64,000 bases of DNA from Methylomarinovum caldicuralii (GTDB taxonomy: Bacteria; Pseudomonadota; Gammaproteobacteria; Methylococcales; Methylothermaceae): NCBI RefSeq assembly GCF_033126985.1, contig NZ_AP024714.1, forward strand, positions 2,000,990-2,064,989, given 5' to 3'. Under the pieces are notes generated by a model. The model was not told where the DNA came from. It worked only from the letters and a program-made list of their open reading frames with translations, and ran no database searches. Shown here in pieces: positions 11,150 to 17,980 of this stretch (within the stretch, counting starts at the first letter, position 1; the number at the start of each line of letters is the position of its first letter). Position numbers and translations under genes: made by a program.

Positions 11150-12013
<864 letters not shown>

Positions 12014-12062
12014 CCTGCTATCCCCCTGTTGGTTTGTTGTTGTTGCAAAGCCGAAGGCCAAT

Positions 12063-12089
12063 CTAGCACTCTCGAAGAGAGAGTGCCAG
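12063..12089. promoter_or_regulatory. CIRCE operator (HrcA-binding inverted repeat) upstream of rpoH
   Basis: The plus strand reads CTAGCACTC, nine spacer bases, then GAGTGCCAG. The CIRCE consensus is TTAGCACTC-N9-GAGTGCTAA, so the halves match 8 of 9 and 7 of 9 with the exact spacer. It lies 50-76 bases ahead of the rpoH start. HrcA repressors bind CIRCE to control groESL and dnaK in many bacteria. Its place here predicts HrcA repression of rpoH. An identical copy precedes the broken rpoH at 16313-16339. Confidence 0.8.
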
Positions 12090-12105
12090 TCTCCTGGAAA
12101 GTTCC
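12078..12105 (-). promoter_or_regulatory. Sigma-E-type promoter of rpoH overlapping the CIRCE operator
   Basis: Minus strand: a -35 element GGAACTT (12105-12099), identical to the sigma-E consensus, then 16 bases and TCTCT (12082-12078), a partial match to the -10 consensus TCTGA. E. coli rpoH also has a sigma-E promoter. The -10 falls inside CIRCE, so HrcA binding would block it. The -35 is kept at 16349-16355 in the duplicate. Confidence 0.6.
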
Positions 12106-12116
12106 TTGACGTAAAG

Positions 12117-12140
12117 AAAAAAACCGCCCCGAAGGGCGGT
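12117..12140 (-). terminator. Rho-independent terminator downstream of pmoC
   Basis: Minus strand ACCGCCC and GGGCGGT pair around a short loop and run into seven T residues. It lies 110 bases past the pmoC stop and just upstream of the rpoH promoter, so it should insulate rpoH from pmoC transcription. Confidence 0.85.
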
Positions 12141-12175
12141 CCCCAAAAAGAGGCAATTCAATGGCTACGCAATAA

Positions 12176-12224
12176 GGAAAAGTGCAACCACTTTTCCAGG
12201 GTCCCCCACCTCCCTGTGGGGGGA
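12176..12224 (-). other. Two further perfect hairpins in the pmoC 3' untranslated region
   Basis: A 9-bp stem (ggaaaagtg with cacttttcc, 4-base loop) at 12176-12197 and an 8-bp stem (tcccccac with gtggggga) at 12202-12224 lie between the pmoC stop and its terminator. Neither has a T-run. Stacked hairpins of this kind can protect the 3' end of an abundant mRNA from exonucleases. That role is inference. Confidence 0.5.
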
Positions 12225-12249
12225 TATGGAGAAAAACATGAAGCGTCAA

Positions 12250-13086
12250 TCAGTCTTCCAAGACGTCGTCCGCCCACTGGGCCTGGTCAGCGCCGATGCG
12301 GGCGACAGCCTCGTCGTAGACCTCACCACACAGCGGTTTGCCCAGCAAGTTCAGGATACTGGCAAGGCTCTGCAGCCAGACTCCCAGGATCCCCAGCGCG
12401 AACCAACCGAAGAAGACAAAACCGTAGTGCAGGGGGGCAACGAACAACTCTTCCATAAACCAGAAGGTATGACCCCATTCATTCAGACCGACGTTAGGGA
12501 CGATCATGAACGGCCCCACCACCGAGATCAGGTACGGGAGGGACATCCCCTTCTTTGTATAGTCAAAGTAAGGCAAACGGGTATGAGCGTAGATGAAAGC
12601 GCCAAAACCCGTGATGATGTAGACCGGATACGAACCATAAAACTCGATGATGTGGCTCGGCGTGAAGTCGGTATCACGGACGATGGTCTGATGCCAGGTT
12701 CCGTCCTGTTCAGTGAAAAAGCTCGCCCCCCAGTAAATGGAATAGGCATAGGCAAACAACCAGATAAGATGGGTAAAGTTGCGGCGCAGCTCCTCCCGGG
12801 TGCCAGCGATCTTGTCCAGATCGCGGGGCCGGGTGCGCCACAGATAACCCCACAGCATGGCGGCAATGATGACTTCCACCACGATTTCAGTGTACAGGAA
12901 ATTCATCCAGTAGGTTTCGAATTCCGGTGCGAAGGAATCCAGACCAGCTTGCCAGCCGTAAACCCTTTCATACCACACCACCCAAGAATAGAGGATGGTG
13001 TAGATCGCAAAGGCAAACGCAAGCCATCTGCGGTTCAATATAGGTTGCTCCGCCTGGGCGGAGACACCAGCCGATGTAGCTGCCAT
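12250..13086 (-). CDS. pmoC: Particulate methane monooxygenase subunit C, orphan copy
   Basis: 278-residue integral membrane subunit of the copper enzyme that oxidises methane to methanol. The PmoC signature is clear: TEIVVEVIIAAMLWGYLWRTRPRDL, and the copper ligands Asp128, His132 and His145 in the DGTWH...PSH arrangement, matching Asp156/His160/His173 of the Methylococcus capsulatus protein. The start at 13086 has a strong AGGAGG at 7 bases. No pmoA or pmoB lies within the window; lone extra pmoC genes are known in Methylococcus capsulatus. The upstream DNA is strikingly AT-rich and contains an FNR-like site. The gene sits between an intact rpoH and broken rpoH and IS debris. Confidence 0.96.
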   Translation of the reverse strand: MAATSAGVSAQAEQPILNRRWLAFAFAIYTILYSWVVWYERVYGWQAGLDSFAPEFETYWMNFLYTEIVVEVIIAAMLWGYLWRTRPRDLDKIAGTREELRRNFTHLIWLFAYAYSIYWGASFFTEQDGTWHQTIVRDTDFTPSHIIEFYGSYPVYIITGFGAFIYAHTRLPYFDYTKKGMSLPYLISVVGPFMIVPNVGLNEWGHTFWFMEELFVAPLHYGFVFFGWFALGILGVWLQSLASILNLLGKPLCGEVYDEAVARIGADQAQWADDVLED

Positions 13087-13252: not shown

Positions 13253-13463
<211 letters not shown>

Positions 13464-16189: not shown

Positions 16190-16228
16190 AAGTGTCGCAA
16201 GAGGGTCAATTTCTGGTGTCGCTTGACA
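16190..16228 (+). repeat. Right terminal repeat of the IS21-type element
   Basis: Two related repeats (gtgtcgcaag...gtcaat and ctggtgtcgcttgaca) end in CA at 16227-16228, the expected IS21 tip. The last bases directly adjoin the rpoH 5' remnant. Confidence 0.75.
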
Positions 16229-16262
16229 TGCCGATACCCGGAATGGCCAGTGCGTTGCTCAT
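16229..16262 (-). pseudogene. rpoH: First 11 codons of the broken rpoH copy
   Basis: The start codon (16262-16260) and 5' coding sequence match the intact rpoH, with a substitution (atacccgg for atgcccgg) in the short coding stub, and are cut by the IS21-type end. This copy lies downstream of ftsX in the canonical ftsY-ftsE-ftsX-rpoH order, so it marks the ancestral rpoH position. Codons 12-130 are missing altogether; 131-201 survive at 13253-13463. Confidence 0.92.
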
Positions 16263-16312
16263 CCTGCTATCCCCCCTGTTGGTTTGTTGTTGTTGCAAAG
16301 CCGAAGGCCAAT

Positions 16313-16355
16313 CTAGCACTCTCGAAGAGAGAGTGCCAGCTTTTTGGAAAGTTCC
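16313..16355 (-). promoter_or_regulatory. Duplicate CIRCE operator and sigma-E-like -35 of the broken rpoH
   Basis: CTAGCACTC-N9-GAGTGCCAG at 16313-16339 is identical to the site ahead of intact rpoH. GGAACTT sits at 16355-16349 at the same distance. Between them four or five bases differ from the other copy, leaving the presumed control elements unchanged. Transcripts from here would run into istB in antisense. Confidence 0.7.
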
Positions 16356-16389
16356 TTGATTCAGGGCAAAAAACCGCCCGGGAGCGATG

Positions 16390-17316
16390 TCACGGACGGA
16401 ACAGCCGCCACAGGTGCCGGCTGACCACCAGCGCGGCGGCGGCCGTCGTCAGCAGGCACACGGCCAGCCAGATTCCGAGGATTTCACCCAGGGAGAAGAA
16501 GTGCGCCTCGAAGCGGCTGCCGTAGAGGCGCGCCAGTTCGACGACATGGGGATAGAGCAGCCGATACAGCAGGAAAACGCCCGCGAGCGCCGCACCGCCA
16601 CCGAGGAAGCCGAACCAGAAGCCGCAATACAGGAACGGACGGCGGATGAAACCGGGGGTGGCGCCCAGCAGGCTCATCACCTCGATCGCTTCATGATGTT
16701 CTTCCAATTCCAGGCGCACGGTATTGCCCACCACCAGCACCACCGCCAGCGACAGAATCACCCCCAGCGCCAAGGCGGCGTGCCGGGCCAGGCGCAACCA
16801 GGCCCGAAAGCGCTGCAACCAGGCCTGATTCCACTGGATCTGCTCCACGCCGGGCCACCGGCGCCAGCGCTGGATCAGCTCGGCAAGGCGGGCCTCCTCG
16901 CTCCAGGCTGGCTTCGGTGTCACTTCGATGACCGCCGGCAGCGGATTGTCGGGCAGCCAGTCCAGGGCCGCGGCGAAATCGCCCGCCTCGCGCAACTGAG
17001 CCAGGGCCTCGTCCTTGCCGATCAGATGGACTTGCGCCACCGCCTCCTCCTCCCGCAGACGCGCCGCCAGGCTTTGCGCCTTCTTTGCGGGCAGATCCGG
17101 CTGCAGATACAGCGTCACCTGCCGACCGGAATCGAAAGCGCCCCCCAAACGCTGCACCTGGGACAAGATGAGATGGAAGCTTAAAGGCAGCACCAGAGTG
17201 ACCGCGATGACGCCGATCGTGACCGCCGTCATCCACGGTGCCCGCCACAGCTCCTCCAGACTGGAAAGCAAAGCCTGGCGGTGCAGACGCAGGTAGGTCT
17301 TCAGCCGGCCAGCCAT
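16390..17316 (-). CDS. ftsX: Cell division protein FtsX
   Basis: 308-residue membrane partner of FtsE in the divisome, an ABC-transporter-like complex that controls septal peptidoglycan hydrolases rather than transporting a substrate. It has the FtsX layout: a cytoplasmic N-terminus, TM1 (TAVTIGVIAVTLVLPLSF), a periplasmic domain of some 130 residues, then three TM segments in the C-terminal half with the MSLLGATPGFIRRPF loop. The start at 17316 gives MAGRLKTYLRLHRQALLSSL. It is 4 bases downstream of ftsE. A weak T-run-like end (GGGCGGTTTTTTG) follows the stop. Confidence 0.95.
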   Translation of the reverse strand: MAGRLKTYLRLHRQALLSSLEELWRAPWMTAVTIGVIAVTLVLPLSFHLILSQVQRLGGAFDSGRQVTLYLQPDLPAKKAQSLAARLREEEAVAQVHLIGKDEALAQLREAGDFAAALDWLPDNPLPAVIEVTPKPAWSEEARLAELIQRWRRWPGVEQIQWNQAWLQRFRAWLRLARHAALALGVILSLAVVLVVGNTVRLELEEHHEAIEVMSLLGATPGFIRRPFLYCGFWFGFLGGGAALAGVFLLYRLLYPHVVELARLYGSRFEAHFFSLGEILGIWLAVCLLTTAAAALVVSRHLWRLFRP

Positions 17317-17320
17317 CCCC

Positions 17321-17980
17321 TCACCCCACTTCGACGACACGTCCCTGTTCCAGGTGGAACCAGCGGCTGGCGAAGCGTTCGACCAGCCCCTGGTCGTGAC
17401 TGGCAATCAGAAAAGTCACCCCGACCCGGTTGAAATCGCGGAACATGGCGAAGATCTCCTGGGACAAGTCCGGGTCCAAATTTCCGGTCGGCTCGTCGGC
17501 CAGGATCAAGGGGGGGCGGGTGACGATGGCCCGGGCGATACCGACCCGCTGTTGTTCGCCCCCGGAGAGGGTGACCGGCCCGCGCCGTTCACAGCCGGCC
17601 AGTCCCACCTTGGCCAGGGCCGCCCGGGTGCGGCGCTCGATCTCTTCCGGCGCGTATCCGGCGATCTGAAGCGGCAGGGCGACGTTGTCGAACACACTGC
17701 GGTCGTAAAGCAGGCGGTAGTCCTGGAAGATTAGACCGATGCGGCGGCGCAGGTAGGGCACGCTCCGGGACGGTAGCCGGGTCAGATCGCGGTCGTTGAG
17801 GAAAATCCGGCCGCGGCTGGGCCGTTCGATGAGAGCCGCCAACTTGAGGACGGTACTCTTGCCGGCCCCGGAATGGCCGGTGATGAAGGCCATGTCACCG
17901 CGCTCGACCGCCAGATCGAGCCCTTTCAAAATCTCGCCGCTGCCCGGATAGCGCTTACCGACCCCCTGGAAACGCAGCAT
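17321..17980 (-). CDS. ftsE: Cell division ATP-binding protein FtsE
   Basis: 219-residue ABC ATPase with Walker A GHSGAGKST, Q-loop region IFQDYRLL, signature LSGGEQQR, Walker B LILADEPTG and the H-loop ASHDQ. The start at 17980 (MLRFQGVGKRYPG) is the standard FtsE N-terminus. It lies 4 bases after the ctaA-ftsY fusion, so ftsY, ftsE and ftsX form one operon as in most gammaproteobacteria. The operon is probably transcribed from upstream of surf1 or within that cluster. Confidence 0.97.
   Translation of the reverse strand: MLRFQGVGKRYPGSGEILKGLDLAVERGDMAFITGHSGAGKSTVLKLAALIERPSRGRIFLNDRDLTRLPSRSVPYLRRRIGLIFQDYRLLYDRSVFDNVALPLQIAGYAPEEIERRTRAALAKVGLAGCERRGPVTLSGGEQQRVGIARAIVTRPPLILADEPTGNLDPDLSQEIFAMFRDFNRVGVTFLIASHDQGLVERFASRWFHLEQGRVVEVG

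Follow-up and report, generated by a model that had tools for sequence, protein, structure and literature searches.

Repression by HrcA and activation by sigma-32 are usually described as separate heat-shock circuits. The locus analyzed here raises the question of whether they meet, because in front of rpoH, the gene for sigma-32 itself, a CIRCE operator lies over the -10 element of a sigma-E-type promoter. The window, i.e., the whole stretch of DNA that was analyzed, comprises 64,000 nt of Methylomarinovum caldicuralii (GCF_033126985.1, NZ_AP024714.1:2,000,990-2,064,989, forward strand; GTDB lineage Bacteria; Pseudomonadota; Gammaproteobacteria; Methylococcales; Methylothermaceae).

The rpoH upstream region in the window

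The features of the locus are as follows.

11150-12013, minus strand: rpoH (sigma-32), intact, 287 aa (NCBIfam TIGR02392, 401.3 bits, scored on the longer ORF)
12020-12026, minus strand: rpoH ribosome-binding site GGGGGAT (sequence reading)
12063-12089, minus strand: CIRCE operator (putative HrcA site), 15/18 to consensus (motif search; kept before rpoH in relatives)
12078-12082, minus strand: sigma-E-type -10 TCTCT, 16 nt past the -35; its TC closes the left arm of CIRCE
12099-12105, minus strand: sigma-E-type -35 GGAACTT, exact; also the GAAC position in rpoH sites of relatives
12119-12144, minus strand: terminator-like hairpin, downstream of pmoC and ahead of the rpoH promoter (hairpin scan; the sister genome has one too)
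12250-13086, minus strand: pmoC/amoC-like gene, upstream of rpoH (sequence match)
16225-16379, minus strand: broken copy of the rpoH 5' region, 91.6% over 155 bp to 11976-12129
16313-16339, minus strand: CIRCE in the broken copy, identical (alignment)
16349-16355, minus strand: GGAACTT in the broken copy, identical (alignment)
16390-17406, minus strand: ftsX (sequence match)

Read along the minus strand, the order is hairpin (12144-12119), GGAACTT (12105-12099), 16 nt, TCTCT (12082-12078) inside CIRCE (12089-12063), and the rpoH ATG 49 bp further on, with GGGGGAT within these 49 nt. The ATG at 12013, which has GGGGGAT upstream, was taken as the best start in preference to the TTG of the longest ORF. 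The hairpin scan found one terminator-like hairpin against a shuffle mean of 0.6, i.e., no excess over chance. Upstream of rpoH, ftsX is the neighbor in E. coli too and also in several relatives, and in the window the pmoC/amoC-like gene stands between ftsX and rpoH. The order ftsX-pmoC-rpoH-cyoE recurs in the sister genome (L008) and in L009, and pmoC also precedes rpoH in L012; L010 has only a short pmoC match there, and no pmoC match occurs in the stretches compared from L011 and L013-L016.

The CIRCE consensus is the inverted repeat TTAGCACTC-N9-GAGTGCTAA. The window site reads CTAGCACTC-TCGAAGAGA-GAGTGCCAG on the plus strand (12063-12089), with arms matching at 8/9 and 7/9 positions around a spacer of exactly 9 bases, as the first-pass annotation had described it. 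At up to 3 mismatches, 2 CIRCE matches were found in the window and 0 in 100 dinucleotide shuffles of it; in the whole genome (2,694,844 bases) there were 5, and the reversed pattern gave 0. The five precede groESL (L002), hrcA-grpE (L003), a second groEL (L004) and the two rpoH copies. The groESL site is perfect (groEL was found there and groES was read by eye). The CIRCE-like site before the second groEL (L004:1501-1527) is asymmetric at 15/18, and its dismissal as a chance match was ruled out by the groEL gene downstream. With 3 mismatches to consensus the rpoH site in the window ranks among the weaker ones, compared with 17/18 in the sister genome and up to 18/18 in relatives.

The proposed regulators are encoded in the genome, so that the absence of hrcA, which the first-pass annotation had named as a refutation, can be dismissed. 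hrcA was recovered with an E value of 2.1e-64 (PF01628) and both HrcA domains, and grpE adjoins it; rpoE scored 305.7 bits (cut-off 236.15) and is followed by rseA and rseB. E. coli was not among the control genomes matched by the HrcA family profile, and it served as a named control in the rpoE search.

The -35/-10 spacing of 16 nt is that of GAACTT-N16-TCTGA, found upstream of rpoH and after ftsX in E. coli, which we take to be P3. The first-pass claim of a consensus sigma-E -35 with CIRCE over the -10 held up: GGAACTT is exact at 12105-12099, the -10 lies within CIRCE, and its coordinates proved correct on recheck, though the final base of TCTCT departs from TCnnA (no final A). Since the left arm of CIRCE ends in the first two -10 bases, repressor and sigma factor would read the same bases. 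GGAACTT is given as a sigma-E -35 motif in passages of two papers (PMC8103513; PMC4890791). A scan of 11950-12260 for a sigma-70 promoter (TTGACA-like and TATAAT-like elements 16-18 nt apart) returned none, and a sigma-54 promoter (GG-N10-GC), judged by eye only, was a poor fit.

It had also been noted that the elements persist in the broken copy although bases between them changed. CIRCE and GGAACTT are indeed unchanged there and the bases between them differ, but this is weak evidence of conservation, since the duplication looks recent: from CIRCE through the ATG the sole difference between the two copies is one extra G. The -35/CIRCE spacer of the broken copy is nearly identical to the sister genome's, which places the change in the intact copy. 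The interval between pmoC and ftsX holds IS256 and IS21 genes with an rpoH fragment on either side (13253-13463, identical at 100% to 11411-11621, and 16225-16379).

CIRCE before rpoH in the order, class and phylum

A comparison of rpoH upstream regions across Methylococcales had been proposed as a check, and it gave strong support that extends into the class. In the order sample, 150/151 genomes have rpoH-like matches. Upstream stretches of 129 genomes were surveyed (30 loci and 100 stretches, one genome being in both); the 22 left out had fragmentary or weak matches, no match (one genome) or upstream stretches outside the set retrieved. CIRCE scoring at least 14/18 precedes rpoH in 114 of the 115 genomes with hrcA and in 7 of the 14 without an hrcA match (Fisher p 2.6e-7, a value that treats sites as independent although they are related, without phylogenetic weighting). 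In shuffled stretches of the relatives the best CIRCE score was 13/18. The only hrcA-positive order genome without an rpoH CIRCE is G026 (L016, L133); a different gene, ftsY by eye, lies directly upstream of its rpoH.

Across the order and class surveys, CIRCE was rarer or degraded where hrcA was not found. Best CIRCE scores in the six hrcA-negative genomes examined from one genus (g6) were 14, 14, 12, 12, 11, and 10, and five of the six have GAAC with TCNNA 16 nt on, in a search that required TC and A and left GAAC free of CIRCE. A kept -10 TC in hrcA-negative genomes was dropped as evidence, since the site picking had required TC. Counting against a simple link, strong rpoH sites do occur in other order genomes without hrcA (G137 at 18/18; G123, G110, and G042 at 17/18; G118 at 16/18), and further genomes without an hrcA match also have good ones (G188 at 18/18; G244, G249, and G278 at 17/18). 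These cases may reflect hrcA genes that escaped detection, genomes that are incomplete, a recent loss, or some other reader of the site. Among named relatives, the best 80 of 448 were taken, some of them shared with the order survey, so that the set is neither random nor independent; 72/80 have CIRCE of at least 14/18 before rpoH. The named loci include Methylococcus capsulatus, Methylocaldum, Thiobacillus, Rhodocyclaceae, Gallionellaceae, Hydrogenophilus and Pseudogulbenkiania. The methanotroph Methylococcus capsulatus (L057) shows the arrangement. One locus (L083) has an additional CIRCE-like sequence, upstream of its rpoH CIRCE.

For the class we used a strict pattern, GGAAC-N10..14-CIRCE, and a sample of 274 genomes. 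It occurs in 62/274, with one match each, and spans 44 families (hand count); the reversed control gave 0. The gap is 11 in 50 matches, 12 in 9 and 10 in 3, and neither 13 nor 14 was found among the five gaps allowed. The window genome lacks the strict pattern, because its CIRCE arms fall outside it. hrcA was found in 199/274 genomes, and the strict pattern in 60 of these 199 vs. 2 of the remaining 75; completeness is 62% and 72% for those two genomes. Of 54 strict matches checked among the 62, 53 precede rpoH (44 just upstream of a listed rpoH match, 9 more by tblastn) and one (G236) precedes groES; rpoH places in the class covered at least 148 genomes besides that of the window. Forty genomes, not a random draw, were taken from the 76 that have hrcA and a listed rpoH and no strict match: CIRCE lies before rpoH in 34/40 and is missing in 6/40. 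For genomes with neither hrcA nor a strict match (20 of the 27 with a listed rpoH) the count was 6/20, and GAACTT-N15..17-TCNNA within 400 nt upstream of rpoH was present in 11/20 hrcA-negative class genomes vs. 0.04/20 in shuffles.

Of 200 genomes sampled from the phylum, the 149 from other classes all lack the strict pattern, and 3 of the 51 from this class have it, two before rpoH and G236 before groES. This is below the rate in the class sample, so the rate depends on the lineages drawn. As far as genome sequences can tell, the arrangement is widespread among relatives and not peculiar to this genome.

Site geometry and the competing explanations

We pooled 269 upstream stretches, which gave 214 distinct CIRCE windows with enough flank (36 fell below 14/18, and 19 had short flanks or were duplicates). 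The comparison set was 40 of 45 non-rpoH CIRCE sites from 22 order genomes, oriented by a simple rule; a chaperone gene downstream was confirmed for some of them, not each. GAAC occurs 13-16 nt upstream of CIRCE (first register) in 119/214 rpoH sites vs. 1/40 other sites, at 15 nt in 96, and after clustering at 70% identity 100 of the 180 remaining rpoH sites have it. The commonest -10 sequences among the 119 are TCTTA (21), TCTAA (18), TCTCT (12), and TCAAA (10). The third spacer base is A in 84/119 sites with first-register GAAC vs. 32/95 without, an excess predicted by the -10 reading TCnnA. A second register, 28-34 nt upstream, holds GAAC in 17/214 rpoH sites; it has little statistical weight, since 5/40 other sites carry GAAC there too. 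Twelve of its members lack first-register GAAC, and several are full -35/-10 pairs that end just before CIRCE. In 83/214 rpoH sites GAAC is in neither register.

The reading that we consider best, and probably correct, is that HrcA represses a sigma-E promoter of rpoH, in many genomes together with a housekeeping one. A doubtful but substantial alternative keeps HrcA as the repressor and gives GGAACTT no part, the promoter being a sigma-70 start that CIRCE itself makes. TTAGCA or TTGGCA occurs in the left arm of 191/214 rpoH sites and, with TANNAT across the right arm and flank, forms a sigma-70-like pair 18 nt apart; TANNAT is present in 168/214 rpoH sites vs. 2/40 other CIRCE sites, and in 84 of the 95 rpoH sites that lack first-register GAAC. 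The window fits this less well, its right-arm hexamer being TAGATT vs. TANNAT in most relatives' rpoH sites, with no sigma-70 promoter called there by the scan; the link between the GAAC position and the third spacer base also speaks against this alternative. The two kinds of start may coexist.

That sigma-E drives rpoH and CIRCE is a leftover free of HrcA control in this organism seems unlikely: the three mismatches of the window's site, a weaker match than the sister's 17/18, speak for it, whereas hrcA is still present, the groESL CIRCE is perfect, and the rpoH sites of several hrcA-negative genomes have decayed further, to 10-14 of 18. CIRCE sits in the leader of many chaperone genes, from which one could argue that the inverted repeat acts as an mRNA hairpin controlling stability or translation. 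We regard this as very improbable here given the predicted start; a start set by the sigma-E elements is expected around the right arm, close to 12071, so that the mRNA would be without the CIRCE left arm, and CIRCE presence goes with hrcA. Three mismatches are also all that speaks for a chance resemblance, which we set aside as next to impossible: the shuffles of the window and of the relatives (at most 13/18) and the conservation in 114/115 hrcA-positive order genomes rule it out, the survey already contradicting it.

HrcA activity depends on GroEL, and envelope stress releases sigma-E from RseA. For the preferred reading, HrcA repression of a sigma-E promoter, the following course of events can be proposed. 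Sigma-E RNA polymerase would start rpoH from GGAACTT-N16-TCTnn once RseA has let go of sigma-E under envelope stress. In the unstressed cell, an HrcA dimer bound to CIRCE would cover the -10 and sterically block that start, and in many relatives HrcA would probably block a housekeeping start within CIRCE as well (TTAGCA/TTGGCA-N18-TANNAT). Heat or misfolded protein would inactivate HrcA and release rpoH; GroEL made in the response would then restore HrcA and shut rpoH off. Full rpoH transcription would thus need HrcA off regardless of the active sigma factor, and through HrcA, GroEL would exert feedback on the sigma-32 supply.

Relation to known systems and implications

The operator is that of the HrcA/CIRCE regulon (groESL, hrcA-grpE-dnaK-dnaJ), with the same 9-base spacer, and hrcA and other CIRCE genes are present in this genome. 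The differences are that the target here is the sigma-32 gene and that CIRCE sits on a sigma-E-type -10; the groESL and hrcA CIRCE sites of this genome lie downstream of a sigma-70 promoter recognized by eye. Two parts of the arrangement are already published, namely the control of rpoH by sigma-E and, in Geobacter, a CIRCE in front of that gene; the combination reaches wider than the first-pass annotation supposed. Heat-shock regulons of beta-, gamma- and epsilon-proteobacteria are said to be the subject of a 2003 study by Permina and Gelfand, in which rpoH may already figure as a CIRCE gene. For Geobacter sulfurreducens, a predicted HrcA site (CIRCE) was placed at -51 of rpoH, and Table 8 of that paper lists rpoH for this species only (Rodionov et al. 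2004, PMC545781). G. sulfurreducens is a delta-proteobacterium, and the portions of the paper concerned name no sigma-E promoter for its rpoH (PMC545781). E. coli rpoH P3 is described as RpoE-dependent (PMC8103513, in excerpt); it shares the sigma-E geometry and has no CIRCE, and the idea of a CIRCE relic there was discarded because 6/18 at the equivalent place is no signal. In Vibrio alginolyticus sigma-E directly binds the rpoH promoter, and, in contrast to the present locus, HrcA is absent from the accessible text of that report (PMC4890791).

Other reports argue against a simple general rule. In Xylella, according to part of a review, the rise was 2-fold for rpoH and more than 4-fold for hrcA (PMC11764788), which is not what simple HrcA repression would predict. 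Meningococcal sigma-E is reported, in a section of PMC2893595, with another -35, and this also counts against such a rule. Neither HrcA nor rpoH appears in the accessible text of a comparative-regulon paper (PMC5343134). Our search, restricted to open-licence PMC papers, found no description of the sigma-E/CIRCE combination before rpoH.

With confidence just short of even, we suggest that the HrcA operator nested with a sigma-E promoter is the ancestral rpoH control in the class that holds the beta- and gammaproteobacteria, that the site integrates envelope and cytoplasmic stress as a coincidence gate, with GroEL feeding back on the sigma-32 supply, and that hrcA-less lineages such as E. coli lost the operator while P3 was retained. 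An operator lost once the repressor was gone would fit the same geometry without CIRCE in E. coli and the GAACTT sites in 11/20 hrcA-negative class genomes. Stress circuits that have been described separately probably meet at one short piece of DNA before rpoH. Should HrcA occupy the rpoH promoter in much of the class, the repressor would rank above sigma-32, and the situation known from E. coli may be derived, following HrcA loss. Lineages that lost hrcA would then amount to natural deletion mutants and offer a simple test, since they show what becomes of operator and promoter.
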